Assembly: GCF_030376605.1 (NCBI RefSeq)
Contig: NZ_JARRAE010000003.1
Location: forward strand, 124,001 to 188,000
Direction: 5' to 3'
Source: Pseudochrobactrum sp. sp1633
GTDB taxonomy: Bacteria; Pseudomonadota; Alphaproteobacteria; Rhizobiales; Rhizobiaceae
DNA: 64,000 nt
The notes below the pieces were generated by a model. That model was not told the DNA's origin. It saw only the letters and a list, made by a program, of their open reading frames with translations, and ran no database searches. The stretch's first letter is position 1. The number at the start of each line of letters is the position of its first letter. The translations under genes and the position numbers were made by a program. This document shows positions 43,851-57,679 of the stretch, piece by piece.

Positions 43851-44780
43851 TCAGTCGTTTTTCATGCGGGCGAAATAGTTTGCCAGCAATGCACCGGAGA
43901 TATTGTGCCACACGCTGAAGATCGCGCTTGGCACTGCTGCCAGCGGCGAGAAGTGCGCATTGGCAAGCGCTGCTCCCAGACCGCTGTTCTGCATGCCGAC
44001 TTCAACCGCAATTGCTTTACGCTTGGCAACGGACATACCGGTAAGCTTTGCAGCGGTAAAGCCGAGCAGATAGCCGATACCATTGTGCAGAACCACGACA
44101 ACGAAGATCAGCAGGCCGGATGTGGCGATTGCGCCTTTGCTGCCTGCAACCACGGCGGCAACGATCAGTACAATGCCGGTCACGCTCACCAATGGCAGCA
44201 CCGGTACGGCGGACTTAACAACACCCGGAATGAGTTTCTGCGCCAGAACACCAAGCGCCAGCGGCACGAGGATCACTTTAACAATGCTCATGAACATTGC
44301 CATTGCATCGACAGGCAGGAACTGACTGGCGAAGAACCAGACGAGGAATGGTGTTACCAGCGGTGCGGCCAGCGTGGTCACGCTGGTGCAAGCAACGGAG
44401 AGTGCCACATCGCCTTTGCCGAGATAAGTCATCACATTGCTGGATGTACCACCCGGGCAGCAGCCGACGAGAATAACACCGGCAGCCACTTCCGGTGACA
44501 TCGGAATGATCTTGGTCAGCAGCACGGCAAGCAGCGGCATAATCAGAAACTGCGAGGCAACGCCGATACCCACATCAACCGGACGGCGTACCACTTCACG
44601 GAAATCGTCAAGGGAGAGGGTAAGCCCCATGCCGAACATGATGATGCCGAGCAGGGTAACAATATAAGGGCCGAATTGTTTGAAGGTCTCAGGGAATACA
44701 AAACCCAGTACAGCAAATAGCAGAACCCAGGCCGCAAAGGTCTTGCCTACGAATGCTGAAAAGGATGCAAGCGTTTTCAT
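43851..44780 (-). CDS. bile acid:sodium symporter (BASS) family transporter
   Basis: A 309-residue inner-membrane protein with about ten spans. BASS/SBF family segments are visible: MFGMGLTLSLDDF, GVILVGCCPGGTSSNVMTYLGKGDVALS (sodium-site crossing region) and EVGMQNSGLGAALA. Bacterial members carry organic anions with sodium; PanS-like relatives export ketopantoate. AGGA lies 9 bases before the ATG. It is followed upstream by a 200-base AT-rich gap and then the MHS-type transporter. Confidence 0.9.
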   Translation of the reverse strand: MKTLASFSAFVGKTFAAWVLLFAVLGFVFPETFKQFGPYIVTLLGIIMFGMGLTLSLDDFREVVRRPVDVGIGVASQFLIMPLLAVLLTKIIPMSPEVAAGVILVGCCPGGTSSNVMTYLGKGDVALSVACTSVTTLAAPLVTPFLVWFFASQFLPVDAMAMFMSIVKVILVPLALGVLAQKLIPGVVKSAVPVLPLVSVTGIVLIVAAVVAGSKGAIATSGLLIFVVVVLHNGIGYLLGFTAAKLTGMSVAKRKAIAVEVGMQNSGLGAALANAHFSPLAAVPSAIFSVWHNISGALLANYFARMKND

Positions 44781-44936: not shown

Positions 44937-44966
44937 ACACCCGCCATGAAATTTCATGACGGGTGT
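44937..44966 (-). terminator. terminator of the MHS-type transporter gene
   Basis: The stem ACACCCGTCATGAAA / TTTCATGGCGGGTGT, read on the minus strand, is followed by TTTTCATTTT. Confidence 0.75.
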
Positions 44967-44991: not shown

Positions 44992-46308
44992 TCAGGCTGT
45001 TGCTTTGTTGTCGTCCATTTTGAAAATGGCGAACAGAGCGATAACAGCTGCGATACTGACATACCATGCAGGGGCACTGTAGCCGAGCGATGTTGTGCCG
45101 AGCCATGTGAGTGCTGCCGGAGCAAAGCCACCGAAGATCGTGGTGGAGATGTTATAGGCAAGCGACATACCGGTTGAGCGGATATGGGTCGGGAAGACTT
45201 CTGACAGCGCAGAAGGTGCAACGCCAACCACACCGGCAACCATAATGCAGAAGCAGCTCTGAACGGTAATCAGTGTTGCGAGTGTCGGCGAGTGATGTAG
45301 CCACCACAGCAGCGGATGAATAGCAATCAGCAGCACAGTTGCGGTGATTGCCAGTGTCAGGCGGCGGCCGATCTTATCGGAAACAGAGCCGGCAACGATA
45401 CAGGCGATAGCCATCAGAATGTTGCTGATAAGCGCCGAGATGAAGGCCTGCGAACCGGTGAAGCCGAATGCACGCTGCACGTAGATCGGCATATAGATAA
45501 CCATCACATAGACGCTGGCTGCCCAGAGCACGGAGAAGGCTGTGCCTTTGATCAATGCACCGCGATAGGTGGTGAAGATCTCTTTCAGCGGAGCATGTTC
45601 TGCTTTGGCTTCCGGCTTTTCATCGAATTTTGCTTTGAAAACCGGTGTCTCATCGAGCGAACGACGCATCCACAGGCCGACAGGTGCAATCAGCAGACCA
45701 ATAATGAACGGCACGCGCCAGCCCCAGTCACCGATCTGATCTTCGGTAAGAAGCGATGTTACCGCGAGAGCCACAAAGGCACCGATAATATTGGAAAATG
45801 CCATACTGGCCTGCAACCAGGCGGCATATTTGCCCTTCTGTCCTGCCGGCGCATGCTCAACGAGAAATGCTGCGGCACTGCCGACTTCACCACCTGCGGA
45901 GAAGCCCTGCAGCACACGGCCTGCAAGAATAATCATTGGTGCGCCGATACCGATAGCGGCATAGGTCGGTGCAATAGCTATCAGCAGCGTACCGGCTGCC
46001 ATGATCATGATTGTCAGAAACAGAGCGGCCTTACGACCGGCTTTATCGGCATAAACGCCCAGCACGACCGCGCCCAAGGGGCGGATCAGAAAGCCGAGAC
46101 CAAATGCCAGAAACGACTTGATCAGTTCAACAGTTTCATTTCCGCCAGGGAAAAAATTCTTGGCGATATAAACGGCAAACAAAGCGTAGATTGTAAAATC
46201 ATACCATTCCAGAGCATTACCGATTGAGGCGGCAGCAACAGCCTTTTTGGCGTTGGAATTTTGCTTTGTATCCGATTTGATAGTTTGATTATGTATAACG
46301 TCCGTCAT
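44992..46308 (-). CDS. MFS transporter, metabolite:H+ symporter (ProP/ShiA-like)
   Basis: A 438-residue transporter with 12 spans. MHS-family signatures include GNALEWYDFTIYALFAVYI at span 1, RPLGAVVLGVYADKAGRK (motif A) and GRVLQGFSAGGEVGSAAAFL. Relatives carry betaines (ProP), shikimate (ShiA), citrate or dicarboxylates. I start at the Met of MTDVIHNQT, 8 bases after GGGAG. It is divergent from the double LysR regulator that precedes the ergothioneine-type operon. As ergothioneine is a betaine and its lyase product is an imidazole acrylate, this is the best candidate importer for that pathway; that is inference. Confidence 0.88.
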   Translation of the reverse strand: MTDVIHNQTIKSDTKQNSNAKKAVAAASIGNALEWYDFTIYALFAVYIAKNFFPGGNETVELIKSFLAFGLGFLIRPLGAVVLGVYADKAGRKAALFLTIMIMAAGTLLIAIAPTYAAIGIGAPMIILAGRVLQGFSAGGEVGSAAAFLVEHAPAGQKGKYAAWLQASMAFSNIIGAFVALAVTSLLTEDQIGDWGWRVPFIIGLLIAPVGLWMRRSLDETPVFKAKFDEKPEAKAEHAPLKEIFTTYRGALIKGTAFSVLWAASVYVMVIYMPIYVQRAFGFTGSQAFISALISNILMAIACIVAGSVSDKIGRRLTLAITATVLLIAIHPLLWWLHHSPTLATLITVQSCFCIMVAGVVGVAPSALSEVFPTHIRSTGMSLAYNISTTIFGGFAPAALTWLGTTSLGYSAPAWYVSIAAVIALFAIFKMDDNKATA

Positions 46309-46443
46309 ATGACAGGCTCCCCCAAACATTCCCGGCTATGGTATCTCTTGTCCCATGCTCCCACCGGCAGTACGAGACAGTAACAATTTAAGTTTCTGCT
46401 GACAGATGACAAAAAATGAATGTCTCCATAGCGAAAAACGAAA

Positions 46444-46456: not shown

Positions 46457-46530
46457 GAGTAGTTTTTATATGTCTGTGGCATATTCAGTTGAAATTTATA
46501 ATGAAAATCAGCGTTTAAGGTTCAGTGTCT

Positions 46531-48342
46531 ATGATCGAGCTGCGTCAGCTTTCTTATTTTGTTGCGGCCTGCCATCAAACCAGCTTCAGCAAAGCGGCAG
46601 AAGTACTGGATATTGCGCTGTCGACATTGAGCGTGGCTTTGCAGAATCTGGAAGAGGAAGTCGGCGCGCAATTGTTCCGCCGTGTGTCCGCAGGCCTGAC
46701 CCCGACAGTGGCTGGTCGCTGGCTCTATCGTGCGGCGATTCCGCTGTTACAGGCCGAGGCCTTTACCCGTCAGGCAAGTATGCGGGAATGTACCGAGGAG
46801 AGTGAATTCAGCCATCTGGTGGTTGAAGTGCAGCTGATGTTCTCTCTGGGTAATATTTCCAAGGCGATCAGCTCTGCGCTGGTCGGTTTGCAGCGTGATT
46901 ATCCGGATGTTTTCATTGAGCCGCATTGGGGCAGTGCTGATGGAGAACCACCATTACCGTTGACGGAAAGTGCAAGAAGCAACCGGATTATTTTCAGCTA
47001 TGAGAATAAAGGCGTTGCCGTGCACGATGATCCGTGGGTGCTGGCACGTAGCTTTCCTTTGCAGACGGGTGAAACACCGGTTCTGACTGAAATGCTGGCA
47101 GGCCCCGTGATTGTGCCCGCATTGCCGGAGCCGCTGCTGCATGATCTCTCAAGCTATCTGGCAAAACACCCGATTAAAAATATCCGTTTTACGCAGGATC
47201 ATCCGGGAACACTGGCACGCCTGAGCGGGGAGAACCCTGATACGGCTTTTCTGGTGCCGCAAAGCACGCTGGCGAACCGCATGGGCTTGCATCGGCTTAA
47301 ACTCGTGCCGCTTGACCCGCCGCTCATCAGTCAGGTGCGAGTGCATATTGCCGAGCCGCATCCGGTGGCAGAGGAAACCGTGCGGCGTATCCGTGCGGCA
47401 CTGGCTTCCGGTGAACCGTCTGCGCTCTATCAGCCGCAACTCACCAGACGGCAATTCAGCTATTTCCGGCTGATCGATAATAACCGTAATCTTACCGCTG
47501 CTGCCCGCGTCGCCAAAGTCGCCCAACCGGCAATCACCGGACAATTGCGCAAGATGGAGCAGGTGATCGGCAAGCCGCTGTTTGAGCGCCGCCGCGACGG
47601 GCTTGTGCCGACAGATGCCGGACGCGTTTTCCGTATCGGCAGTGATCTGATCGATACGCGTTTGCAATCTATGGCCGTTCATAGTGCGGGATCATTAGGG
47701 CGTAATCGTTCACGTTTACGCATCGGCGTGCTGCCGTCCGTTAGTCAGGAAAGCACTCTGCTCGCAGGCATGACCGATGCGGTACTGCGCTGGCGAAAAA
47801 ACCATCCGCAGATTGATCTGCAAATTCTGGAAGCGCCGACCAGCGTCTTGCAGGATTGGGTGCAGGCGGGAGTGATCAGCCTTGCCGTGCTGGAAACGGA
47901 TATGCCGCATATGGCGCGTTTCAGCCTCAATGTTGAGGAACCGTTATCGCTGATCTGTCATCCTGATTTGGCCACGGAATTAACTCAGGATACAGCGATT
48001 GATCTGGAAACGTTGCGTCAGGTGCCGCTGGTTCTGCCGACCATGACATTCGGCATCCGGCAATTGCTGGAAGCGCAACTGAGCGAACATCATCTGACAT
48101 TGGAGCCGGTTATAGAGATCAATTCTCTGCCGATGATGATTGCGATGATCCGGCGCGAAAAGCTTGCGACCTTGCTGCCGGTCTCAGCAGTGCGCCGTGA
48201 TCTGGAGCAGGGCACATTGGTTAGCCTTGAGTTGAAGCCGCATATTCTGCGCAGGCTGTTTGTGATCTACTCCAATGCCCGCACATTGACGGTTGCCGAA
48301 AGAGAACTGGTGCGCGAATTACGGGAAGCGCTCACTCCATAA
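46531..48342 (+). CDS. tandem (double) LysR-type transcriptional regulator
   Basis: A 603-residue protein containing two complete LysR units in one uninterrupted frame. Unit 1 has a winged helix at residues 3-63 (LRQLSYFVAACHQTSFSKAA) and a periplasmic-binding-like effector domain to about residue 295. Unit 2 has its own winged helix at about 306-368 (RRQFSYFRLIDNNRNLTAAA) and a second effector domain to the end. Usual LysR proteins are about 300 residues. I start at ATG 46531; a GTG two codons earlier is also possible. It lies between a divergent transporter and the convergent catabolic operon ending at 48513, which it probably controls. Confidence 0.88.
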   Translation: MIELRQLSYFVAACHQTSFSKAAEVLDIALSTLSVALQNLEEEVGAQLFRRVSAGLTPTVAGRWLYRAAIPLLQAEAFTRQASMRECTEESEFSHLVVEVQLMFSLGNISKAISSALVGLQRDYPDVFIEPHWGSADGEPPLPLTESARSNRIIFSYENKGVAVHDDPWVLARSFPLQTGETPVLTEMLAGPVIVPALPEPLLHDLSSYLAKHPIKNIRFTQDHPGTLARLSGENPDTAFLVPQSTLANRMGLHRLKLVPLDPPLISQVRVHIAEPHPVAEETVRRIRAALASGEPSALYQPQLTRRQFSYFRLIDNNRNLTAAARVAKVAQPAITGQLRKMEQVIGKPLFERRRDGLVPTDAGRVFRIGSDLIDTRLQSMAVHSAGSLGRNRSRLRIGVLPSVSQESTLLAGMTDAVLRWRKNHPQIDLQILEAPTSVLQDWVQAGVISLAVLETDMPHMARFSLNVEEPLSLICHPDLATELTQDTAIDLETLRQVPLVLPTMTFGIRQLLEAQLSEHHLTLEPVIEINSLPMMIAMIRREKLATLLPVSAVRRDLEQGTLVSLELKPHILRRLFVIYSNARTLTVAERELVRELREALTP

Positions 48343-48512: not shown

Positions 48513-50159
48513 TTACGCTAAATTGAAGTGGCGGATGTTTTTCTTTTCCGCTTCGTCCAGCGCTTCTTCATAACCGGCATCAGCATAACGCATCACGCCG
48601 AGCGATGTGTCATTGGTCAGCGACAGTTCAATGCGAGTATCTGCATCATCTGTACCATCGGCCACCACAGTCACACCCGCGCTGGTCATATAACCGGAAT
48701 AGCCGCCGCCACCGGAGTGGATCGCCACCAGATCAGCCTGCGACGAGCACATGGCCAGAGCGTTGATCAGCGGCCAGTCGGCAATCGCATCAGAACCGTC
48801 ACGCATATTCTCGGTCATGATATTCGGATGCGCCATCGCACCAGCATCAAGATGGTCACGGGTAAAGGCAACAGGGCCGGAGAGCGTACCGTCACGCACC
48901 ATGCGGTTAACCGCCAGCGCTAGTTCTGTGCGCTCGCCATGACCGAGCCATGCAATACGCGCAGGCAGGCCTTCAAACGGCACATGCTCACCGGCCAGAT
49001 TGATCCAGTTGGTGACAATGCGGTTATCGGCAAAGGCTTTGAGGATATAATTGTCGATAATGCGGATATCTTCGCGGTTATTCGACAAAGCAATCCAGCG
49101 GAACGGGCCAATAGCGCGGCAGAACAGCGGGCGCAGGAAGGCTTCGGTGAAGACCGGAATATTGAACGCATCAGCCACACCGCCGTCTTTGGCATGGGTG
49201 CGGATCAGGTTGCCATTGTCAAACACCACTGACCCGGCTTTCTGGAAGCCAAGCATTGCCGTGACGTGACGAACGATGGACGCGCGGCTTTCATTCATCA
49301 GTGTCTGCGGGTCGCTCTTGCGCATGGCGCGGGCTTCATCCAGCGAGCGGGTCGCCGGTACATAGCCGTAAACCAGATCATGTGCGGAGGTCTGATCGGT
49401 CACGATATCAGGAATGATATTGCGCGCCAGAATCTGCTCATAAAGATCAGCGGCATTGCCATGAACGCCGATGGAAACAGCACGTTTCTCGGCCATAGCA
49501 GCTTTAACCTGCGCCAGCGCATCGTCCAGATCTTTGGCAATCACATCGAGGAAGCCGATATCCTTGCGCTTCTGAATGCGCTCCTGATCGATTTCAACGC
49601 AGAGCGTAACCGCACCAGCCAGACGACCTGCCAGTGGCTGCGCGCCGCCCATGCCACCAAGACCGGCGGTGAGGATCAGACGACCGGCCAGATCATTGTT
49701 GAAGCTCTGCTCGGCAATGCGCATGAAGATTTCATAGGTGCCCTGAATAACACCCTGCGAGCCGATATACTGCCAGTCACCAGCAGTGAGACCGCCCCAG
49801 CAGATCAGGTTCTGCTTTTCCCATTCGTAGAAATTTTCAGCCTTCGCCCACTGACCAACCATATTACAGTTGGCCATAATCACGACTGGTGCCTGTTTAT
49901 GGGTTTTCAGAATGCCTATCGGCTTGCCGGATTGCACGACGAGCGTTTCGTCTTCTTCAATCTTGTGCAGGCTTTCAACGATCTTGTCATGGGACGGCCA
50001 GTCGCGTGCGGCTTTACCGAGCGCGGCATAGACCACCAGATTGTCAGGGTCTTCACCCACAGCCAGCACGTTTTCCATCAGGCGCAGCAGGCCTTCAGCG
50101 CGCCAGTTTTTGCAGCGCAGTTCGGTGCCGGTGGTGACGTTAAATTGTTTCTTGGACAT
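48513..50159 (-). CDS. urocanate hydratase family protein, probable thiourocanate hydratase
   Basis: A 548-residue NAD+-dependent urocanase homologue. Core motifs are present: QSGKPIGILKTH, GGLGGMGGAQPLAG (NAD+ binding), DQTSAHD, CRAIGPFRW and RDGSDAIADWPL. It is clearly divergent from HutU: the highly conserved RICWxGxGER stretch, which holds the reactive Cys (Cys410 in Pseudomonas putida), reads RIAWLGHGER here, so that Cys is Ala403. None of the other hut genes (hutI, hutG, hutF) is nearby; instead it ends an operon with a DUF917 protein, a carbamoylase, a hydantoinase and an MIO-less lyase. I therefore infer that it hydrates thiourocanate to 3-(5-oxo-2-thioxoimidazolidin-4-yl)propionate. 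Ordinary urocanase activity is the alternative. Confidence 0.85.
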   Translation of the reverse strand: MSKKQFNVTTGTELRCKNWRAEGLLRLMENVLAVGEDPDNLVVYAALGKAARDWPSHDKIVESLHKIEEDETLVVQSGKPIGILKTHKQAPVVIMANCNMVGQWAKAENFYEWEKQNLICWGGLTAGDWQYIGSQGVIQGTYEIFMRIAEQSFNNDLAGRLILTAGLGGMGGAQPLAGRLAGAVTLCVEIDQERIQKRKDIGFLDVIAKDLDDALAQVKAAMAEKRAVSIGVHGNAADLYEQILARNIIPDIVTDQTSAHDLVYGYVPATRSLDEARAMRKSDPQTLMNESRASIVRHVTAMLGFQKAGSVVFDNGNLIRTHAKDGGVADAFNIPVFTEAFLRPLFCRAIGPFRWIALSNNREDIRIIDNYILKAFADNRIVTNWINLAGEHVPFEGLPARIAWLGHGERTELALAVNRMVRDGTLSGPVAFTRDHLDAGAMAHPNIMTENMRDGSDAIADWPLINALAMCSSQADLVAIHSGGGGYSGYMTSAGVTVVADGTDDADTRIELSLTNDTSLGVMRYADAGYEEALDEAEKKNIRHFNLA

Positions 50160-50183
50160 TATAATTCTTTCTAAACCGCTAAA

Positions 50184-51272
50184 TCAGGCCAGTGCGTAAT
50201 CAGCAAGCAAAATACCGAGTGCCTTTTCGACGATCGGATAAACGCTCGGATCTTTGACTGATGCGCTGAGCGGGATTTCCGTTTTGGCGATGTGGAACAC
50301 CAAAATTTCCATGCCTTCATGGACATTGCCGACACTGACAGGGCTGCCATTGGTGTCGAGTGTGGTGATCACATCAGGGAAGGTGGCAAGACGCTGACCA
50401 TCACCGTCATCCACGGCCATATATTCGTTCATCACATGCAGGATCGCATCGCGGTTGCCGTCACGCACGGTGATGGTGCCGATGTCGAAAGCTTCCTGCG
50501 TGTAATGCACATTCTTGGCAGTGACTTTGCCCTGTGCGAGAATGCTGCCATTGGTGGTTTTACAGATCGCATCAATCACCGCAGTTGCACCTTTGCTCTG
50601 GGCTGCGCGAATGGCTTCACCAAGGGTCAGAGCGCGGGAGATGCCGCCGAGTGCTGCATTCTTGCGCACATAGGAAGCACGCAGCGGATTGCGGCAGCTG
50701 GCGATGAAACCGCCGGACATATCGGAGGCTTTGCGCAGGATCGGCGAGATTTTTGCTGTCGCGCCGCGTGTTACCAGCTCGATATAGGAGTTAGAATCGC
50801 GGTGACCACCAACGGCTGTCTGGATCATCTGCTCAGGGCTGTTGGCCATGCCGATGGAGCCCATATCACCGGTCGGATGTGCACGGATATCGCCCACAGC
50901 ATCAATCACCTTGGTGCCGAGAACAGCAGAAGGCAGCCATGCATTCATGGTGCTGGACATGCCGTTCTGGCCGATCATCAGGCCATAGACTTCGTCGCCT
51001 AGCTCATATTGCAGCAGTTCAACAGCTTTCACATAGTCGATGCCGAGCATTTCCCACTGGGTGGTGCTGGCCGGTGCGCCGATTGCTGCGGCTGTGGCGA
51101 TCCATGCGTCATCGGATACTTCTTCCATATCCACCAGTTCAGGCCGGCCAATGGTGACCGCAGTAGTGCCCAGCATACGGCCATGCTCGACCCAGCCGCC
51201 GCCGCCTGCTGCAAAGACCGAACCGCCTGCAATTGCGGATTCCACGTCATCCAATGTTAAAATACGCCCCAT
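50184..51272 (-). CDS. DUF917 family protein, probable thioxoimidazolidine-propionate desulfhydrase
   Basis: A 362-residue full-length DUF917 (S-methyl thiohydantoin desulfurase) family protein beginning MGRILTLDDVESAIAGGSVFAAGGGG, with the family's GGGG turn and DMGSIGMANSPEQM region. GAGGAGG lies 5 bases ahead of ATG. Family members are found next to hydantoinases. Between a urocanase homologue and a carbamoylase, the fitting reaction is replacement of sulfur by oxygen on the thiohydantoin ring, releasing sulfide and giving hydantoin-5-propionate. It is 24 bases upstream of the hydratase gene and 12 bases after the carbamoylase gene. Confidence 0.82.
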   Translation of the reverse strand: MGRILTLDDVESAIAGGSVFAAGGGGWVEHGRMLGTTAVTIGRPELVDMEEVSDDAWIATAAAIGAPASTTQWEMLGIDYVKAVELLQYELGDEVYGLMIGQNGMSSTMNAWLPSAVLGTKVIDAVGDIRAHPTGDMGSIGMANSPEQMIQTAVGGHRDSNSYIELVTRGATAKISPILRKASDMSGGFIASCRNPLRASYVRKNAALGGISRALTLGEAIRAAQSKGATAVIDAICKTTNGSILAQGKVTAKNVHYTQEAFDIGTITVRDGNRDAILHVMNEYMAVDDGDGQRLATFPDVITTLDTNGSPVSVGNVHEGMEILVFHIAKTEIPLSASVKDPSVYPIVEKALGILLADYALA

Positions 51273-51284
51273 AATGGCCTCCTC

Positions 51285-52574
51285 TTAAATGCTGTTATGC
51301 GTTTGATTGGTAATCGGAGTGCGCTCGTCAAACCGGCGCACTGCCGCAAACATTGCCGCAGCACCTGCTGCAATGTCGTGTTTCTCTGCCCATTCTTCCG
51401 GTGTGTGGCTGCGCCCGCCGAGGCATGGCACAAAGACCATAGCTGCCGGTGCCAGCTGGCCGATAAAGGCCGCATCATGCCCCGCACCGCTGGCGAGTTG
51501 CAGATGGCTATGGCCGAGTGCATCAGCGCTTTTTGCCAGATCATCCAGCAGACCTAAGTCACAATCCATCGGCATGGTGTCGGAAAGGGTCTTGAAGTGG
51601 CTGCGCTCCACACTGGCTTTTGCGGCAGCATCTTGTGTCGCCGCATCAATGCTTTCCAGAAAACGCAGGGTCTTTTCACGTTTGCCGGTGCGGATATCGA
51701 CAATCACCTTGGCCTGTTCCGGCACCACATTGGCACCGCCCGGTTCAAGGGTGAGAATGCCGACCGTGGCAACAAAATAGCCGTCCGGCTCGGATGCCAA
51801 GGCTTCGGCCTGTTCACGGATTGCTGTGACAGCTTGTGCAGCCGCATAAAGCGCATCACGGCGCATATGCATTGGCGTGGTGCCCGCATGGTCAGCGGCA
51901 CCCTGAAACGCGATTTCCAGACGGGTGATGCCGACAATGCCGGTCACCAGACCCAAATCCGTCTTGCTCTGTTCCAGCACAGGGCCTTGCTCAATATGCA
52001 GTTCCAGATAGGCGGCAATATCATCCTTGCGTATAGCCTCTACGAGCTTGGCCGGATTACCGCCGACACGGATCAGCGCATCGCCGAGACGCTCATCCTG
52101 CGGGCCGGTAAAGTCGAGCATAGCATTGGTCAGCTGACCGCTCATGCCACGGCTGCCGACACAGGAGAGGCCGTATTCACTCGGTTCTTCAGCGAGAAAA
52201 TCCACCACTTCCAGATTATGCTGCAACTCAATACCGGCATCGCGCAGGGCGCGAGCAACTTCGAGTGCCGCCACCACACCGGCAATACCGTCAAAGCGTC
52301 CGCCGGATGGCACAGTATCGCTATGCGAACCCATCATAATGGTTTTGGCGTGAGGCTTGGCACCGGCACGGCGGCCGATCAGATTGCCTGCGGTATCAAT
52401 GCGCACCTTAAGACCGGCGGCTTTGAACTGCTCAATCAGATAGGCGCGGCCAGCCAGAAAACGTGGTGTAAAGGAACGGCGGGTGTAAGGCTTGCCCGGC
52501 TCGGTAATATCAGCCAGCGCCATAATATCCTGCCAGAGCCGGTCACCATCGACGAGCGTGTTAGAAGCCGCCAT
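51285..52574 (-). CDS. M20 family hydrolase, probable N-carbamoyl-L-glutamate amidohydrolase
   Basis: A 429-residue enzyme of the hydantoinase/carbamoylase (Zn-dependent M20) family with metal ligands in GSHSDTVPSGGRFDG and FLAEEPSEYG, LELHIEQGPVLE (catalytic/dimer segment), and the insert domain AADHAGTTPMHMRRDAL. Homologues are L-carbamoylases, beta-ureidopropionases and allantoate amidohydrolases. Its ATG overlaps the TAA of the hydantoinase gene by one base, so the two are translated in step. In this operon the expected substrate is N-carbamoyl-L-glutamate, giving glutamate, ammonia and CO2. Confidence 0.88.
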   Translation of the reverse strand: MAASNTLVDGDRLWQDIMALADITEPGKPYTRRSFTPRFLAGRAYLIEQFKAAGLKVRIDTAGNLIGRRAGAKPHAKTIMMGSHSDTVPSGGRFDGIAGVVAALEVARALRDAGIELQHNLEVVDFLAEEPSEYGLSCVGSRGMSGQLTNAMLDFTGPQDERLGDALIRVGGNPAKLVEAIRKDDIAAYLELHIEQGPVLEQSKTDLGLVTGIVGITRLEIAFQGAADHAGTTPMHMRRDALYAAAQAVTAIREQAEALASEPDGYFVATVGILTLEPGGANVVPEQAKVIVDIRTGKREKTLRFLESIDAATQDAAAKASVERSHFKTLSDTMPMDCDLGLLDDLAKSADALGHSHLQLASGAGHDAAFIGQLAPAAMVFVPCLGGRSHTPEEWAEKHDIAAGAAAMFAAVRRFDERTPITNQTHNSI

Positions 52575-53935
52575 TATGCGGCTCCTTTGCGCGAAGCAGG
52601 GCGTACAAAGCGACCGGAACCCGGTTCAGCCGTAACCACACCTTCAGCCATGGCACATTCACCGCGCACAAATGTATGGGTGATACGGAATGGCAGTTTG
52701 ATGCCGTCATAAGGGCTCCAGCCGACAATATTATTGCCGCTTTCTGCCGCCTTATAGGTATAAGGATCGCGGCGTGCCAGCACGATATCCGCATCAAGAC
52801 CGGCACCGAGCGCACCCTTGGTCTGACCGAGACGGAACAGATTGGCCGGATTATGCGCCAGCAGACGGGCGGCATGGCTGAGCGACAGACCGCGTTCATC
52901 CAGACCTTTGAGCAGCAGCGCATAGAGCGCTTCCAGCCCCGGAACACCGGATGCGTTTTTCAGCATGTTTTCATCGTTTTTGCGATCAAGCGACCAGCTC
53001 ACATGATCGGTGGAAACAATGGTCACATTACCGGCGGCCAGTTGCTGCCAGATGGCTTCACGCTCGGCGCGGTTGCGCACCGGCGGGTTGATCTTAGCGC
53101 GGCCGATCAGGCGGCTTACATCATCTTCTTCACATAATGTCAGATAGTGGATGCAGGCTTCAACCGTTGCGGCATAGCCCTGTGCGCGATAACCGGCGGC
53201 CAGTTCATAGCCACGACCAACGGAACAATGCACCACATGGGTGGCACAACCGCTCATGGCGCCGATTTCATAGACTTCTGCCATAGCCAGCGTTTCAGTC
53301 ACCGGCGGGCGGCTCATGCTATGGGTCAGATAATCGGTACGGCCGCTTTTCTCAACCTGATCGATGTAATAGCGCACCATTTCATCATTTTCATTATGAA
53401 TACCGGCAATCAGACCATGACGGGCAATGGCCGAGAAACACTCAAAAAGCATCTGCGGGGTAATGCGCGGAAAGCGCTCAGGATGCGTACCGAAGGTGGA
53501 GAATTTGAAACCCGCCGCACCGGCTTCAACCAGACCGTCAATATGTTTGGTGCCGTCTGCCGGATGCGCCGTGGCATAAAGCGCGAAATCCACGCGCGCT
53601 TCCTTGCCAGCGGATTCCACTTTGCGGGTGAAGCGCTCCGGCGTGGCGATCAGGTCGCCGTCGTCATAAGGCATATCGACAATCGTTGTCACACCGCCTG
53701 CAGCGGCCGAACGGGTCGACCAGATAAACTCTTCCTGATTTTTCTGACTGCGACTGTGCACCTGACCGTCAATCGCACCCGGCAGCACCAGATAATCCGT
53801 ACCGCCGTGGCTTTCACCTTCAGGGGCTGCACCCTGACCGGTCTGGACAACGCGGCCGTCGCTGACCAGCACCCAGCCATTATCAATGACCTGATCGGGC
53901 AGAACCACTTTACCTTTGAAGACTTTATCCTGCAT
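52574..53935 (-). CDS. cyclic amidohydrolase (hydantoinase/allantoinase family), probable hydantoin-propionate hydrolase
   Basis: A 453-residue amidohydrolase. Residues of the binuclear metal site are Lys144 (carboxylated Lys, GFKFSTFG), His180 (GIHNENDE), His236 (HVVHCS) and Asp310 (STDH). The N-terminal metal motif is altered: family members have Asp-x-His-x-His but this protein has Asp56-Gly-Gln58-Val-His60, with the first His replaced by Gln. It should open a hydantoin ring, here hydantoin-5-propionate to N-carbamoyl-glutamate. The unusual metal site may reflect the acidic substrate or a single-metal variant. It is followed directly by the carbamoylase. Confidence 0.85.
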   Translation of the reverse strand: MQDKVFKGKVVLPDQVIDNGWVLVSDGRVVQTGQGAAPEGESHGGTDYLVLPGAIDGQVHSRSQKNQEEFIWSTRSAAAGGVTTIVDMPYDDGDLIATPERFTRKVESAGKEARVDFALYATAHPADGTKHIDGLVEAGAAGFKFSTFGTHPERFPRITPQMLFECFSAIARHGLIAGIHNENDEMVRYYIDQVEKSGRTDYLTHSMSRPPVTETLAMAEVYEIGAMSGCATHVVHCSVGRGYELAAGYRAQGYAATVEACIHYLTLCEEDDVSRLIGRAKINPPVRNRAEREAIWQQLAAGNVTIVSTDHVSWSLDRKNDENMLKNASGVPGLEALYALLLKGLDERGLSLSHAARLLAHNPANLFRLGQTKGALGAGLDADIVLARRDPYTYKAAESGNNIVGWSPYDGIKLPFRITHTFVRGECAMAEGVVTAEPGSGRFVRPASRKGAA

Positions 53936-54001
53936 TGCGGCATTCCCTCATTCTGACTGCCTGCATTGTTTTGGAATGCAGGCAGTTATGCGATTTAAAA
54001 A

Positions 54002-55684
54002 TTACTTGGTGGCTGGCTGCGTGAAAGCGTGCAGTACCTGCACACCGGCTGCAAAATCAGGCGTGTAAATGCGATCCTGATCGACGAATTTGACCTGTGC
54101 ACGATAGGTTTCCAGCAGCTTCGCGGATGTCTTGCCGAGCGCAACTTTGCCACGCAGATCAACCGCCTGCGCCGAATGCAGCAGCTGAATGGATGACAGG
54201 CTGTACATATTGCCGAGAATGCGCTGGAGATTGCTCACAGCCAGCGGGGCATTATTGCCGGTATCTTCAATATTGCCTGCCATGGCAAAAGTATCGAGCG
54301 AGACAGGCATGGCCAGCTGGCGATTTTCCGCATAGAGCGCAACGAGCGGCTTCTGCATGGCACCAAAGGCATGGCCTTCATTTTCAGGACCAGCAAGGAA
54401 GCGCGGCAGCTTGGTGAAATCCGGATTTTCCGTGCGGATGGTCTGCATCACAATATTCTGCGCCAAACGGGTGAGGGCGACATTCAGATTTTCCACACGG
54501 GTGGCAACCGGCAGCATATCGAAATTGGCTGTCGGATAAATCGCGCCATGTACATCGCCTGCCACCTGATATTTGTGCAGCTGGTTATGACTGTCAGCCG
54601 CTTTTTCCGCAGGCTTGTCGGAAGCCACTGCGGCCGGATTGTCATCGCTGGCATTGATATGGATATGCAAAGCTTCTTCGAGTGCGGCCTGTGCTTCCCA
54701 TGCATTACCAAGCGCATAGGCCATCGTGCGGTAAGAGAGTGGATCCTGCAAAGCGCGGCCGTCAGACTGCTGCCAGAGATAGGAGCCATCCAGTGCTGCA
54801 CGAATATCTGTTGCCGCCTTCACCATTCCTGGAAATGGGCGCAGTTCAGTTGTCTCGCTCAGGAAAGGCGCGACATTGCCGTTATAGCCTTCAAGCGACA
54901 GAGCAAAAACGGCTGTGGCGGCTTCCAGATAATGGCGGGTTTCTTCTGCCAGCAGAGCAGCCTGACCGGCAGTCAGCGCATTGGTGCTGAGAATGGAGAG
55001 AAAGTCTTTGCCGACTGGTTCAATCGGTTTCAAACCGGCCAGTTTCAGGGCTTCTGCCGCAGGCATACGCTTGCCCTGATAATCCACAAACCATTCGCCG
55101 ATCATGGCCAGACCGATATGGGAGGCCAGCGTAATATCGGCCTCACCGACAGAACCTTTTTCTGGCACAACGGGAATAATGTCGTGATTGAGGAAATCGC
55201 GATAGGCTTCCACCACACTTAGCTGTGTTCCTGTTTCACCGCCGAGCATTTCATTGAGGCGGATCAGCATACCGGCGCGCACTGCCTGCGCAGGCATAGC
55301 CTCGCCAATGCCGCCACCATGGGCATGAAGTGAACTGGTGTTGAAGCGGCGGGAAAGAGCCAGCAATTCTTCATCCAGCGTGCGGCGGCCTTTAACCTCT
55401 TTGAAAACCGGTTTGTCCTTGTTCCAGCCCACGCCGACATTCAGACCGTAAACCGCGGTTCCTTGCAGCGCAGCTTCCATCACCAGTTCAAAACTATGGC
55501 TGACTTTTTGTGCCGCTTCCGGAGCGATTTCGACTTTTTCATTTTTGTTCGCTGCGAACTCTGCCACCTGCGCAGTGGTGAGCTGCGTACCGTTAAGCTG
55601 CAAAGCTTGCGCATAGGCTGCGGAAGACGACAGAAAGGCAATAGTCAGAATGCTGATTTTGGAAAGGTGATTGAGCTGTTTCAT
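54002..55684 (-). CDS. exported HAL/PAL-fold lyase without MIO motif, probable ergothionase
   Basis: A 560-residue member of the aromatic amino acid lyase fold with a Sec signal peptide (cleavage near AYAQA, about residue 26), hence periplasmic. Family landmarks are kept: TAVYGLNVGVGW with the catalytic-loop Tyr79, LQDPLSYR, and INASDDNPAAV. The site that should form the MIO prosthetic group is absent: in place of GSVG-Ala-Ser-Gly-Asp-Leu it reads GSVG-Glu181-Ala-Asp183-Ile. Histidine ammonia-lyase activity is therefore very unlikely. Ergothionase, which eliminates trimethylamine from ergothioneine to give thiourocanate, is a homologue that needs no MIO. It is the first gene of the five-gene operon. 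Confidence 0.82.
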   Translation of the reverse strand: MKQLNHLSKISILTIAFLSSSAAYAQALQLNGTQLTTAQVAEFAANKNEKVEIAPEAAQKVSHSFELVMEAALQGTAVYGLNVGVGWNKDKPVFKEVKGRRTLDEELLALSRRFNTSSLHAHGGGIGEAMPAQAVRAGMLIRLNEMLGGETGTQLSVVEAYRDFLNHDIIPVVPEKGSVGEADITLASHIGLAMIGEWFVDYQGKRMPAAEALKLAGLKPIEPVGKDFLSILSTNALTAGQAALLAEETRHYLEAATAVFALSLEGYNGNVAPFLSETTELRPFPGMVKAATDIRAALDGSYLWQQSDGRALQDPLSYRTMAYALGNAWEAQAALEEALHIHINASDDNPAAVASDKPAEKAADSHNQLHKYQVAGDVHGAIYPTANFDMLPVATRVENLNVALTRLAQNIVMQTIRTENPDFTKLPRFLAGPENEGHAFGAMQKPLVALYAENRQLAMPVSLDTFAMAGNIEDTGNNAPLAVSNLQRILGNMYSLSSIQLLHSAQAVDLRGKVALGKTSAKLLETYRAQVKFVDQDRIYTPDFAAGVQVLHAFTQPATK

Positions 55685-56086: not shown

Positions 56087-57679
56087 ATGCCTTGTAATCT
56101 CACGTCTAAAATTGCACTCAGCCTTATGATGTCGGCCTCATTGCTCAGTCAGGCCGCAGCACAAAAATCAGAACAGGATATCAAAACCTATAAGCAGCAG
56201 GTGACAGCAGATGTAGAAAGCCGTGCCAAGCTTGCACAGGAGATGACGGATTCAATTTTCAGCTTTGGTGAGCTGGCTTTTCAGGAAGTGGAAACTTCGA
56301 AATACATCACGGATATTCTGGAAAAGAACGGTTTTACCATAGAGCGCGGTGTTGCCGGTCTGCCAACCGGCTGGGTGGCGCGCTGGGGTTCCGGCAAGCC
56401 GGTGATTGCACTGGGTAGTGATATTGACGGTCTGCCGAAAACATCCCAGATGCCCGGTGTTGCCTATCGCAAACCGATGATTGAGGGCGCACCCGGTCAC
56501 GGGGAAGGGCATAATTCAGGGCAGGCTGTGAATGTGGTGGCGGCACTGGCGCTTAAAGAGCTGATGGAGAAGGAAAAGCTCTCCGGCACGCTGGTGCTCT
56601 GGCCGGGTGTGGCTGAGGAACTGTTGGGCGGCAAAGCCTATATGGTACGCGACGGCGTGTTCAAGGATGCGGATGTGGTGCTGTTCACCCATGTGGGTAA
56701 TAATCTGCAAACTTCATGGGGCGCTTCCAATGGCACGGGCATGGTCTCGGTCAAATATACTTTTGGTGGTGAGTCTGCCCACTCTGCCGGTGCGCCTTGG
56801 CGCGGACGCAGTGCGCTTGATGGTGTGGAGCTGATGAATATTGGCTGGAATATGAAGCGTGAGCATTTGCGGCCTGAACAGCGCTCGCATTATGTAATTC
56901 CTGACGGCGGTGATCAGCCCAATGTGGTGCCGTCTGTTGCCAGTGTTTGGTATTTTATCCGTGAGACGGATTTTGAGAACATCGCCAAAAATTTTGCTGT
57001 AGCGAATACGATGTCTGAAGCAGCGGCAAAAATGTCGGATACGACAGTCGAGCGCCAGATTATCGGCACAGCAGCACCGCGCCATTTCAACAAGCCTGTG
57101 GCAGAAGCTGCTTATGCCAATATTCTGGAAGTAGGCCTGCCGAAATGGACAGAGGATGAAAACAGCTTTGCTAAAGCAGTGCAGAAGGCTGTGAAAGGCA
57201 AAGAAGAGGGGCTGGCAACCGAGCTTAAAAAACTGGCGCCACCGCCTGCAAAACCGGAAAGCGGCGGCTCTGATGATATCGGCGATGTGTCATGGATCGT
57301 GCCGACAATCACGCTGAACTATCCGTCGAATATTCCGAACCTTCCGGGGCATCACTGGTCAAATGCCATGTCTATGGCTACGCCGATCGCTCATAAAGGT
57401 GTGGTGGCCGGATCAAAAGTCGTTGCGATGACGGGCGTTGATTTGCTGACGAAGCCGGAGCTGGTGACGGCGGCAAAGGACTATTTTACTAATGTGCAGC
57501 AGAAAGATCAGAAATACCTGCCGATGCTCGGTGCTGATGATAAGCCGCAAATTCAGTTGAATACCGAGATTATGCAGCAATTCCGCCCTGAAATGCAGAA
57601 GCTCTATTATGATGCGGAGAAATATCCGACCTATCTGGATCAGCTCGGCATTAAATTTCCGGAGCTGAGTGCGCAATAA
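56087..57679 (+). CDS. exported M20 family amidohydrolase (AbgB-like)
   Basis: A 530-residue metallohydrolase with a signal peptide (SLLSQAAAQ, cleavage near residue 25). The M20 zinc site is suggested by GSDIDGLPK, APGHGEGHNSGQ and AEELLGGKAYM, and a lid/dimer domain includes ESAHSAGAPWRGRSALDGVEL. It resembles aminobenzoyl-glutamate hydrolase subunit B and other amidohydrolases, but is longer and periplasmic. GGAG lies 6 bases before ATG. It is divergent from the ergothionase-type operon across a palindrome-rich region, so it may release substrate for that pathway from a conjugate; the actual substrate is unknown. Confidence 0.85.
   Translation: MPCNLTSKIALSLMMSASLLSQAAAQKSEQDIKTYKQQVTADVESRAKLAQEMTDSIFSFGELAFQEVETSKYITDILEKNGFTIERGVAGLPTGWVARWGSGKPVIALGSDIDGLPKTSQMPGVAYRKPMIEGAPGHGEGHNSGQAVNVVAALALKELMEKEKLSGTLVLWPGVAEELLGGKAYMVRDGVFKDADVVLFTHVGNNLQTSWGASNGTGMVSVKYTFGGESAHSAGAPWRGRSALDGVELMNIGWNMKREHLRPEQRSHYVIPDGGDQPNVVPSVASVWYFIRETDFENIAKNFAVANTMSEAAAKMSDTTVERQIIGTAAPRHFNKPVAEAAYANILEVGLPKWTEDENSFAKAVQKAVKGKEEGLATELKKLAPPPAKPESGGSDDIGDVSWIVPTITLNYPSNIPNLPGHHWSNAMSMATPIAHKGVVAGSKVVAMTGVDLLTKPELVTAAKDYFTNVQQKDQKYLPMLGADDKPQIQLNTEIMQQFRPEMQKLYYDAEKYPTYLDQLGIKFPELSAQ

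Follow-up and report, generated by a model that had tools for sequence, protein, structure and literature searches.

Whether the degradation of ergothioneine begins inside or outside the cytoplasm is the question raised by a five-gene operon of the soil bacterium Pseudochrobactrum sp. sp1633, located in the 64,000-nucleotide stretch of DNA analyzed here (the window). Ergothioneine is a diet-derived antioxidant whose sources are fungi and actinobacteria and whose turnover in the environment is poorly mapped. In a 2021 ACS Chem Biol study Beliaeva, Leisinger and Seebeck reportedly rebuilt the five-step ergothioneine pathway in vitro, and the pathway predicted from the operon is this ordinary, already known one. 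The part that is new would be its first enzyme, a lyase predicted to be exported, with a co-travelling candidate importer of the major facilitator superfamily (MFS): a signal peptide on the first enzyme together with a linked transporter would imply that step one of the pathway has changed place.

The operon consists of five co-directional open reading frames on the minus strand (55684-48513) with gaps of 66, -1, 12 and 24 bases, and in gene order its products belong to the Pfam families Lyase_aromatic, Amidohydro_1, Peptidase_M20 and S-Me-THD (DUF917 fold), followed by a protein with three urocanase domains. An earlier note, made from the letters of this DNA, had described these frames, with their coordinates, gaps and protein families, as a route from ergothioneine to glutamate and had stated that hutI, hutG and hutF were lacking nearby. 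The frames, coordinates and gaps were all reproduced, Pfam concurred for each family and no hut gene occurred among the five neighbours scanned; the proposed pathway was borne out as well, with four enzymes over curated cut-offs and the lyase grouped with the ergothionase of Treponema denticola. The note overlooked the signal peptide and the linked transporter, and its expectation that automatic annotation would probably return a broken hut operon proved outdated, as four of the five enzymes are given their correct names by current NCBIfam models; deposited records call the relatives urocanate hydratase, hypothetical or DUF917 protein, and hutH.

The last four genes were assigned with the curated models of NCBIfam release 20, which include ergothioneine-utilization (Ert) models with cut-offs. 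ErtD scored 740 bits with NF058538 (cut-off 600), ErtE 594 bits with NF058540 (cut-off 520), the desulfurase 623 bits with NF058529 (cut-off 440) and the hydratase 1019 bits with NF058530 (cut-off 930). The S-methyl-ergothioneine pathway was rejected based on the scores of the hydratase (743 bits, cut-off 880) and the desulfurase (284 bits, cut-off 450) with the corresponding models. Allantoin degradation was rejected too (TIGR03178, 262 bits against a cut-off of 358; TIGR03176, 218 against 598); the broad subfamily PRK09290.1-5, called allantoate amidohydrolase, was barely reached (400.7, cut-off 399). The hydratase also scored 696 bits with the hutU model, but the cut-off of this model is permissive (375), so that used alone it would mislead. 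The best PDB match of the hydratase was 7ned (789 bits, next 604), labelled urocanate hydratase in the PDB, which we take to be the Paenibacillus thiourocanate hydratase of the Beliaeva study. In a tree of 43 rows, which took in 14 of the 30 operon loci fetched for comparison, the window hydratase grouped with 20 other operon hydratases and 7ned (100/96) and 19 HutU rows were set apart (100/100). Among genomes the score is sharply bimodal (1002-1061 above the cut-off, 720 for the best of the rest); among the 247 family genomes the hydratase passed the cut-off in 33, including four Pseudochrobactrum, and in the phylum draw it did so in 6 of 398 genomes, five of which also sit in the family count. 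By its curated score, the hydratase is assigned to the thiourocanate and not to the urocanate type.

The 30 comparison loci comprise up to 20 kb around the other hydratases over the cut-off. ErtD, ErtE and the desulfurase accompany the hydratase in 27 of them, the exceptions being L087 (hydratase only, at a contig edge), L101 (no ErtD or ErtE match) and L107 (no ErtE match), and the gene arrangement is therefore far beyond chance. Since all five enzyme families of the pathway are found within one locus, the assignment of the window genes as a new member of the ergothioneine catabolic operons is supported, and each enzyme is predicted to have the corresponding catalytic activity in this host.

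The first gene encodes a protein whose best PDB match was the T. denticola ergothionase 6s7j (299 bits, next 150), with 38% identity over 479 aligned residues. At the site of the 4-methylideneimidazole-5-one (MIO) group, the alignment reads GSVGEADIT in the window lyase and SSIGEGDIT in T. denticola, versus GSVGASGDL in 13 of 13 HutH rows; as GSVGEADIT replaces GSVGASGDL, the MIO-forming residues are absent, as in T. denticola. Both proteins share the motif YGLNxGVGWNKDK, and YGL[NT]xGVG[WL]NKD was present in all 12 loci of the window lyase clade. In a tree of 52 rows (L091, L106, L110, L141 and L142 omitted) the window lyase, 12 relatives, T. denticola and L109, the last two being long branches, stood on one side of a branch (96/95), apart from 13 HutH (100/100) and from 22 lyases of the type found in other operons (100/100). 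The AlphaFold model, built from nine input sequences, had a mean predicted local distance difference test (pLDDT) score of 74 and a predicted template modelling score (pTM) of 0.78; Foldseek returned 6s7j first (E 2.6e-31, 35% identity) and then HutH (8e-25). The MIO-less lyase of histidine ammonia-lyase (HAL) fold announced by the earlier note was thus found, Ala-Ser-Gly being absent by alignment and the fold supported by Foldseek, and the grouping with true HutH and HutU that it had named as a refutation is contradicted by the trees, which separate the lyase from the 13 HutH and the hydratase from the 19 HutU. In sequence, tree and fold the lyase is closest to the Treponema enzyme, and it is predicted to be of the ergothionase type.

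The lyase starts with MKQLNHLSKISILTIAFLSSSAAYAQ, a typical Sec signal with a positive n-region, a hydrophobic core and an AxA-type cleavage site according to our own rule (not SignalP). The alignment with the T. denticola chain, which is without N-terminal extension, begins at lyase residue 27 and chain residue 2, and pLDDT is below 50 for lyase residues 1-24. The rule, requiring a positive n-region, an uncharged hydrophobic octamer and small residues at -3 and -1, was applied to 55 lyase rows and was positive for the window lyase, for 11 of 12 clade loci, of which five are near-identical Pseudochrobactrum, and for none of the 43 other lyase rows. The positive loci represent seven lineages, Pseudochrobactrum, a metagenome-assembled genome (MAG) labelled Acetomicrobium, Paracoccus denitrificans, P. 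saliphilus, Sinorhizobium meliloti, Burkholderia arboris and Paraburkholderia, and not Polaromonas; their N-terminal sequences are otherwise unlike.

Cysteine content points in the same direction. The window lyase has no cysteine in 560 residues and the mature region is cysteine-free in 12 of 12 clade loci, versus 4-8 cysteines in 24 rows of the other operon clade (23 genes, as L106 and L140 are one gene), 4-11 in 13 HutH and 8 in the 479 residues seen of the T. denticola ergothionase. Six further lyase rows had 0-5, the zero being L109, which belongs to no lyase group, has a signal by eye and fails the rule; in a further two genomes of the family (L145, L146) the lyase likewise lacks cysteine and its start looks signal-like by eye. 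L124, with a split frame, was left unscored, and L095 was below the 380-residue frame limit. The lack of cysteine in the mature lyase is a second, independent sign of export, and on both signs the lyase is very likely to be exported out of the cytoplasm. Judging from the B. arboris protein, the enzyme of Burkholderia sp. HME13 might carry a signal peptide as well.

Relatives of the lyase with 97-98% identity over the full length were found in Pseudochrobactrum asaccharolyticum, P. kiredjianiae and P. saccharolyticum, and the gene is present in seven of seven Pseudochrobactrum genomes, fragmented in one. A record labelled Bacillus subtilis SK6B4 (L006) has the same gene order and a lyase 97% identical, and looks like a misnamed Pseudochrobactrum genome. 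On S. meliloti pSymA (L125:7920-9560) a lone exported-type, cysteine-free ergothionase-like lyase carries the annotation hutH, and the 17.5 kb stretch contains no annotated hut or ert gene. In Paracoccus seriniphilus (L124:7911-9366) the exported-type lyase has its reading split between frames, and at a distance of about 5 kb there is an S-methyl thiourocanate hydratase (946 bits, cut-off 880). The lyase encoded in the MAG labelled Acetomicrobium (Synergistota; L008:9992-11656) has about 60% identity, a signal-like start and no cysteine, and no other gene of the window locus matched within 10 kb, which suggests gene transfer or a binning error. In G855, a class-level genome, four HAL-fold genes are 32-33% identical to the window lyase; one of them, L109, reads GSIGEGDL, lacks cysteine and by eye has a signal-like start. 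L141 and L142 (genomes G175 and G236) represent a further HAL-fold type, distinct from HutH and from both operon lyase types, which reads GSAGYL at the MIO site, has YGVNTGVGAL and scores 458-474 bits with PF00221.

The MFS protein encoded beyond the oppositely oriented regulator scored 384 bits with TIGR00883 (cut-off 443) and 269 bits with the model of the betaine symporter ProP (cut-off 544). Counterparts lie between the hydratase and the exported lyase in P. denitrificans HAMBI_2443 (69%) and B. arboris (64%), and the MFS gene thus accompanies the exported lyase and a core of thio-type enzymes in three lineages. It had no match above 50 bits in the 30 other core loci, was found in none of the five loci with an exported-type lyase and no thio-type core (L123-L126, L128), and among seven further plasmid loci was matched in Ensifer canadensis (L153) only. 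At E<=1e-120 it occurs in only four of 247 family genomes (six best candidates scored per genome), all Pseudochrobactrum; at E<=1e-60 the lyase occurs in seven, the same four and three others. Of 72,556 plasmid records, three (P. denitrificans, B. arboris and E. canadensis) carry the MFS gene at E<=1e-100. Identity to the window proteins, given for P. denitrificans and B. arboris in this order, was 60.8 and 41.7% for the lyase and 70.8 and 63.6% for the MFS protein, and the order was reversed for the hydratase (69.4 and 75.6%) and the desulfurase (65.5 and 67.7%). This reversal, together with the position of the P. denitrificans hydratase in another sub-clade of the tree, suggests that lyase and MFS gene move as a module separate from the core. 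The simplest reason for them to travel together would be that the lyase makes what the symporter carries, thiourocanate, and on this ground the MFS protein may well be a thiourocanate importer.

In the E. canadensis stretch the MFS gene is accompanied by ErtD (772 bits, cut-off 600), ErtE (570 bits, cut-off 520), UbiD/UbiX and a relative of the double LysR regulator (L153:2113-3900; residues 4-600 matched, 31%, 237 bits). An annotated LysR of 566 aa was also noticed near the operon of Paracoccus aminophilus (L129). The UbiD-family decarboxylase and UbiX beside ErtD/ErtE in E. canadensis (L153:4607-8638; no hydratase in the stretch seen) have a parallel in Thalassospira, where a UbiD-family decarboxylase follows the hydratase (L130:11641-13059); these genes possibly belong to a further branch whose substrate would be an unsaturated or heterocyclic acid.

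The 30 comparison loci differ in how they begin the pathway. A lyase stands beside the core in 22 of them and none in eight, two of these at contig edges. The 22 lyases contain cysteine and belong to another clade than the window lyase; GS[IM]GC[AG]DIGLMGQ was found in all 24 alignable rows of this type, three of which came from a genome-wide lyase search of nine genomes, and identity to the window lyase was 27-31% (38% for one shorter piece). As a separate clade of such low identity, these proteins are not orthologues of the first gene of the Pseudochrobactrum operon, whose lyase gene looks exchanged. L102-L105, whose hydratases are nearest to that of the window among the 30, have no lyase beside the core. 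In L102, L104 and L105 the binding protein and large permease of a tripartite ATP-independent periplasmic (TRAP) transporter were found, and the binding protein also in the shorter stretch of L103. A PF00221 search of nine genomes returned an MIO-bearing HutH as the only such protein in the four L102-L105 genomes and in G527 (no ErtE match; no TRAP match in its stretch). It also returned an other-operon-type lyase elsewhere in the genome in G237 and G175, the same type and no HutH in G088, and HutH plus one protein of the further type (L142) in G236. Thalassospira marina, in the other hydratase sub-clade, has both TRAP genes (63 and 77%), and its 21.6 kb stretch gave no lyase match. Genomes with a TRAP system and no lyase beside the core may scavenge thiourocanate made by others. 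It is a tentative and rather doubtful proposal that interchangeable front ends are mounted on a conserved core: exported ergothionase plus MFS symporter, a cytosolic lyase of the other clade, or none, in several cases with TRAP. A betaine importer of the ATP-binding cassette (ABC) type as a rule for cytosolic-lyase operons was considered and rejected, as the L101-type system was found in only two of 30 loci (L101, L106); other operon loci have weaker ABC ATPase matches and transporters of other kinds. On a Deinococcus sp. plasmid (L156:5599-12649) a five-gene set occurs in another order, with an ErtD-like protein in two coding sequences, an ErtE-like protein, a HAL-fold lyase, a hydratase (767 bits, cut-off 930) and a DUF917 protein (395, cut-off 440), perhaps a sister pathway.

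Based on this evidence, a compartmentalized version of the five-step pathway is proposed, which we regard as reasonably likely. The lyase would be exported by Sec and, as an MIO-less ergothionase, would eliminate trimethylamine from ergothioneine outside the cytoplasm to give thiourocanate; the neighbouring MFS symporter would import thiourocanate and not ergothioneine; in the cytoplasm the hydratase would form thiohydantoin-propionate, the DUF917 enzyme would remove sulfide, ErtD would open the hydantoin and ErtE would remove the carbamoyl group, yielding glutamate. Ergothioneine made by the host was rejected as a source: the genome has no match to the EgtD domain (PF10017), so the substrate probably comes from outside. 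Trimethylamine may be lost, as a search of the genome for a trimethylamine monooxygenase of the flavin-containing (FMO) type gave only a partial FMO-like match of 35 bits; other trimethylamine routes lay outside this search.

Several points weigh against this division of the pathway. The signal call comes from a simple rule and not from a SignalP-class predictor; applied to nine window proteins it was positive for the lyase, a secreted-looking M20 hydrolase and the SBF carrier, a membrane protein and hence a false friend. The clade member L126 fails the rule, some relatives have uncertain start codons (L008, L122), and an in-frame TTG at codon 28 of the lyase is in principle an alternative start. 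The lyase scores below every NCBIfam cut-off (HutH model, 253 against 539) and matched no NCBIfam model named ergothionase. The combination of lyase, MFS gene and core is known from three lineages, which are few; in the window the MFS gene is a separate unit, and E. canadensis has it with ErtD and ErtE and no lyase or hydratase in 19 kb. Symporters of the metabolite:H+ (MHS) type include ProP for betaines, and the MFS protein could carry ergothioneine itself.

This last possibility leads to the best surviving alternative, namely that the lyase is exported and the MFS protein carries ergothioneine or something unrelated, thiourocanate entering by another route such as the SBF carrier. The score with the ProP model and the SBF gene that follows the MFS gene in L003-L007 speak in its favour; yet the import of ergothioneine would be pointless with the lyase outside, and the MFS gene tracks the exported lyase plus core and, in E. 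canadensis, ErtD/ErtE with no lyase in the stretch seen, so that we consider this route unlikely. In a second alternative, the main substrate of the exported lyase would be a related betaine, for example S-methyl-ergothioneine, ergothioneine sulfonate or hercynine, and the enzyme would have a secondary place in the operon. This fits the clade members that stand alone (S. meliloti pSymA, Polaromonas) or adjoin a hut operon (P. saliphilus), as well as the split P. seriniphilus member near an S-methyl thiourocanate hydratase. It is clearly unlikely, however, given that the window hydratase and desulfurase are the thio and not the S-methyl equivalogs and that lyase, MFS gene and thio-type hydratase occur together in three lineages.

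Less probable again is a wholly cytosolic five-step pathway, with ergothioneine imported intact, the lyase inside and an N-terminal stretch that is not a functional signal. To our knowledge ergothionases have been described as cell-extract enzymes, and none of the 21 scorable core-adjacent lyases of the comparison loci is positive by the Sec rule (the lyase of L106 starts outside its stretch and was scored as L140). Against this stand the Sec-like N-termini in seven clade lineages with otherwise unlike N-terminal sequences and the complete absence of cysteine from the clade lyases, which make it very unlikely. Finally, a degraded or mis-assembled histidine operon, suggested by the HutH-fold and urocanase-fold members, the hutU score and records naming the relatives hutH and hutU, is ruled out by the separate lyase and hydratase clades, the missing MIO tripeptide and the intact frames, and the genome has an MIO-bearing HutH and a HutU-like gene on another contig (G000:C3:53697 and 56072).

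If the first step is indeed placed outside the cytoplasm, no ergothioneine importer would be needed, trimethylamine would be released outside and thiourocanate may be shared with neighbours. The MFS clade, and possibly the TRAP system, would gain thiourocanate import as a candidate function. The combination of signal peptide, no cysteine, YGL[NT]xGVG[WL]NKD and no Ala-Ser-Gly would separate exported-type lyases from HutH in databases, where the relatives are named hutH or aromatic amino acid ammonia-lyase.

In PMC13405746 ergothionase is listed for a few organisms and described as lacking MIO, and the word periplasm is absent. For thiourocanate that paper cites cross-feeding in the gut (Zhou 2025) and a gut desulfhydrase (Feng 2025), and for ergothioneine sulfonate a pathway (Yan 2022). 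Should the core indeed carry interchangeable front ends, thiourocanate would be a shared extracellular nutrient among soil bacteria, in parallel to the gut cross-feeding cited there. Titles and abstract beginnings of the ergothionase and thiourocanate literature, with most subscription papers outside, contained no exported ergothionase, which is weak evidence of absence, and no paper joining Pseudochrobactrum and ergothioneine was found in a literature mostly without subscription papers.

Table 1. Features of the operon and its surroundings in the window; enzyme names give predicted functions.
Feature	Position	Strand	Basis
Ergothionase-type lyase (HAL fold, no MIO tripeptide), 560 aa, predicted exported	54002..55684	-	PDB, motif, tree, Foldseek
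Predicted Sec signal peptide at the lyase N terminus, MKQLNHLSKISILTIAFLSSSAAYA, 25 codons, cleavage proposed before Q26	55610..55684	-	Sequence, rule, alignment start, pLDDT
ErtD, hydantoin-5-propionate amidohydrolase, 453 aa	52574..53935	-	NF058538
ErtE, N-carbamoyl-L-glutamate amidohydrolase (M20), 429 aa	51285..52574	-	NF058540
Thiohydantoin desulfurase (DUF917 / S-Me-THD fold), 362 aa	50184..51272	-	NF058529
Thiourocanate hydratase (urocanase family), 548 aa	48513..50159	-	NF058530, PDB, tree
Double LysR, 605 aa, candidate regulator (two HTH_1, one LysR_substrate match)	46525..48342	+	Pfam
MFS metabolite:H+ symporter family protein, candidate thiourocanate importer	44992..46329	-	TIGR00883, neighbourhood comparison
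SBF-family carrier (membrane protein)	43851-44780		
Terminator-like hairpin, 13 pairs then T-rich, directly past the MFS gene	44937..44966	-	Pattern scan

The hairpin past the MFS gene is suggestive only, as the region has 9 terminator-like sites versus 12.3 in shuffles. Divergent from the operon, an M20-type hydrolase with a signal-peptide-like start (56087-57679, plus strand) is 95-96% conserved in six Pseudochrobactrum-type loci (L003-L007, L009) and had no match above 80 bits in the 30 other operon loci.

Compared with known systems, the window shares with histidine utilization (hutH/hutU) the fold families of its first and last genes; it differs in the lack of MIO, in the clades of both proteins and in having no hutI, hutG or hutF among the neighbours scanned. 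The hydratase and desulfurase of the S-methyl-ergothioneine branch (NF058531/NF058532), whose hydratase is presumably that of 8q9u/8q9v, are homologous to those of the window, which fall well below the cut-offs of that branch. The lyases of the other operons likewise lie upstream of ErtD and have the HAL fold without MIO tripeptide, but form a clade of their own (100/100) that is richer in cysteine, 27-31% identical to the window lyase (38% for one shorter piece) and negative by the Sec rule. The T. denticola ergothionase (6s7j/6s7q; Maurer 2019) shares with the window lyase the HAL fold without MIO, YGLNxGVGWNKDK, GE[AG]DIT and its side of the branch, and differs in having eight cysteines in the part seen and no N-terminal extension, at 38% identity. 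With the five-step pathway (Beliaeva 2021; NCBIfam Ert models) the operon has in common the same five reactions by family, four of its proteins being over the cut-offs; unlike that pathway as known, it begins with a cysteine-free lyase that bears a predicted signal peptide and is linked to an MFS symporter.

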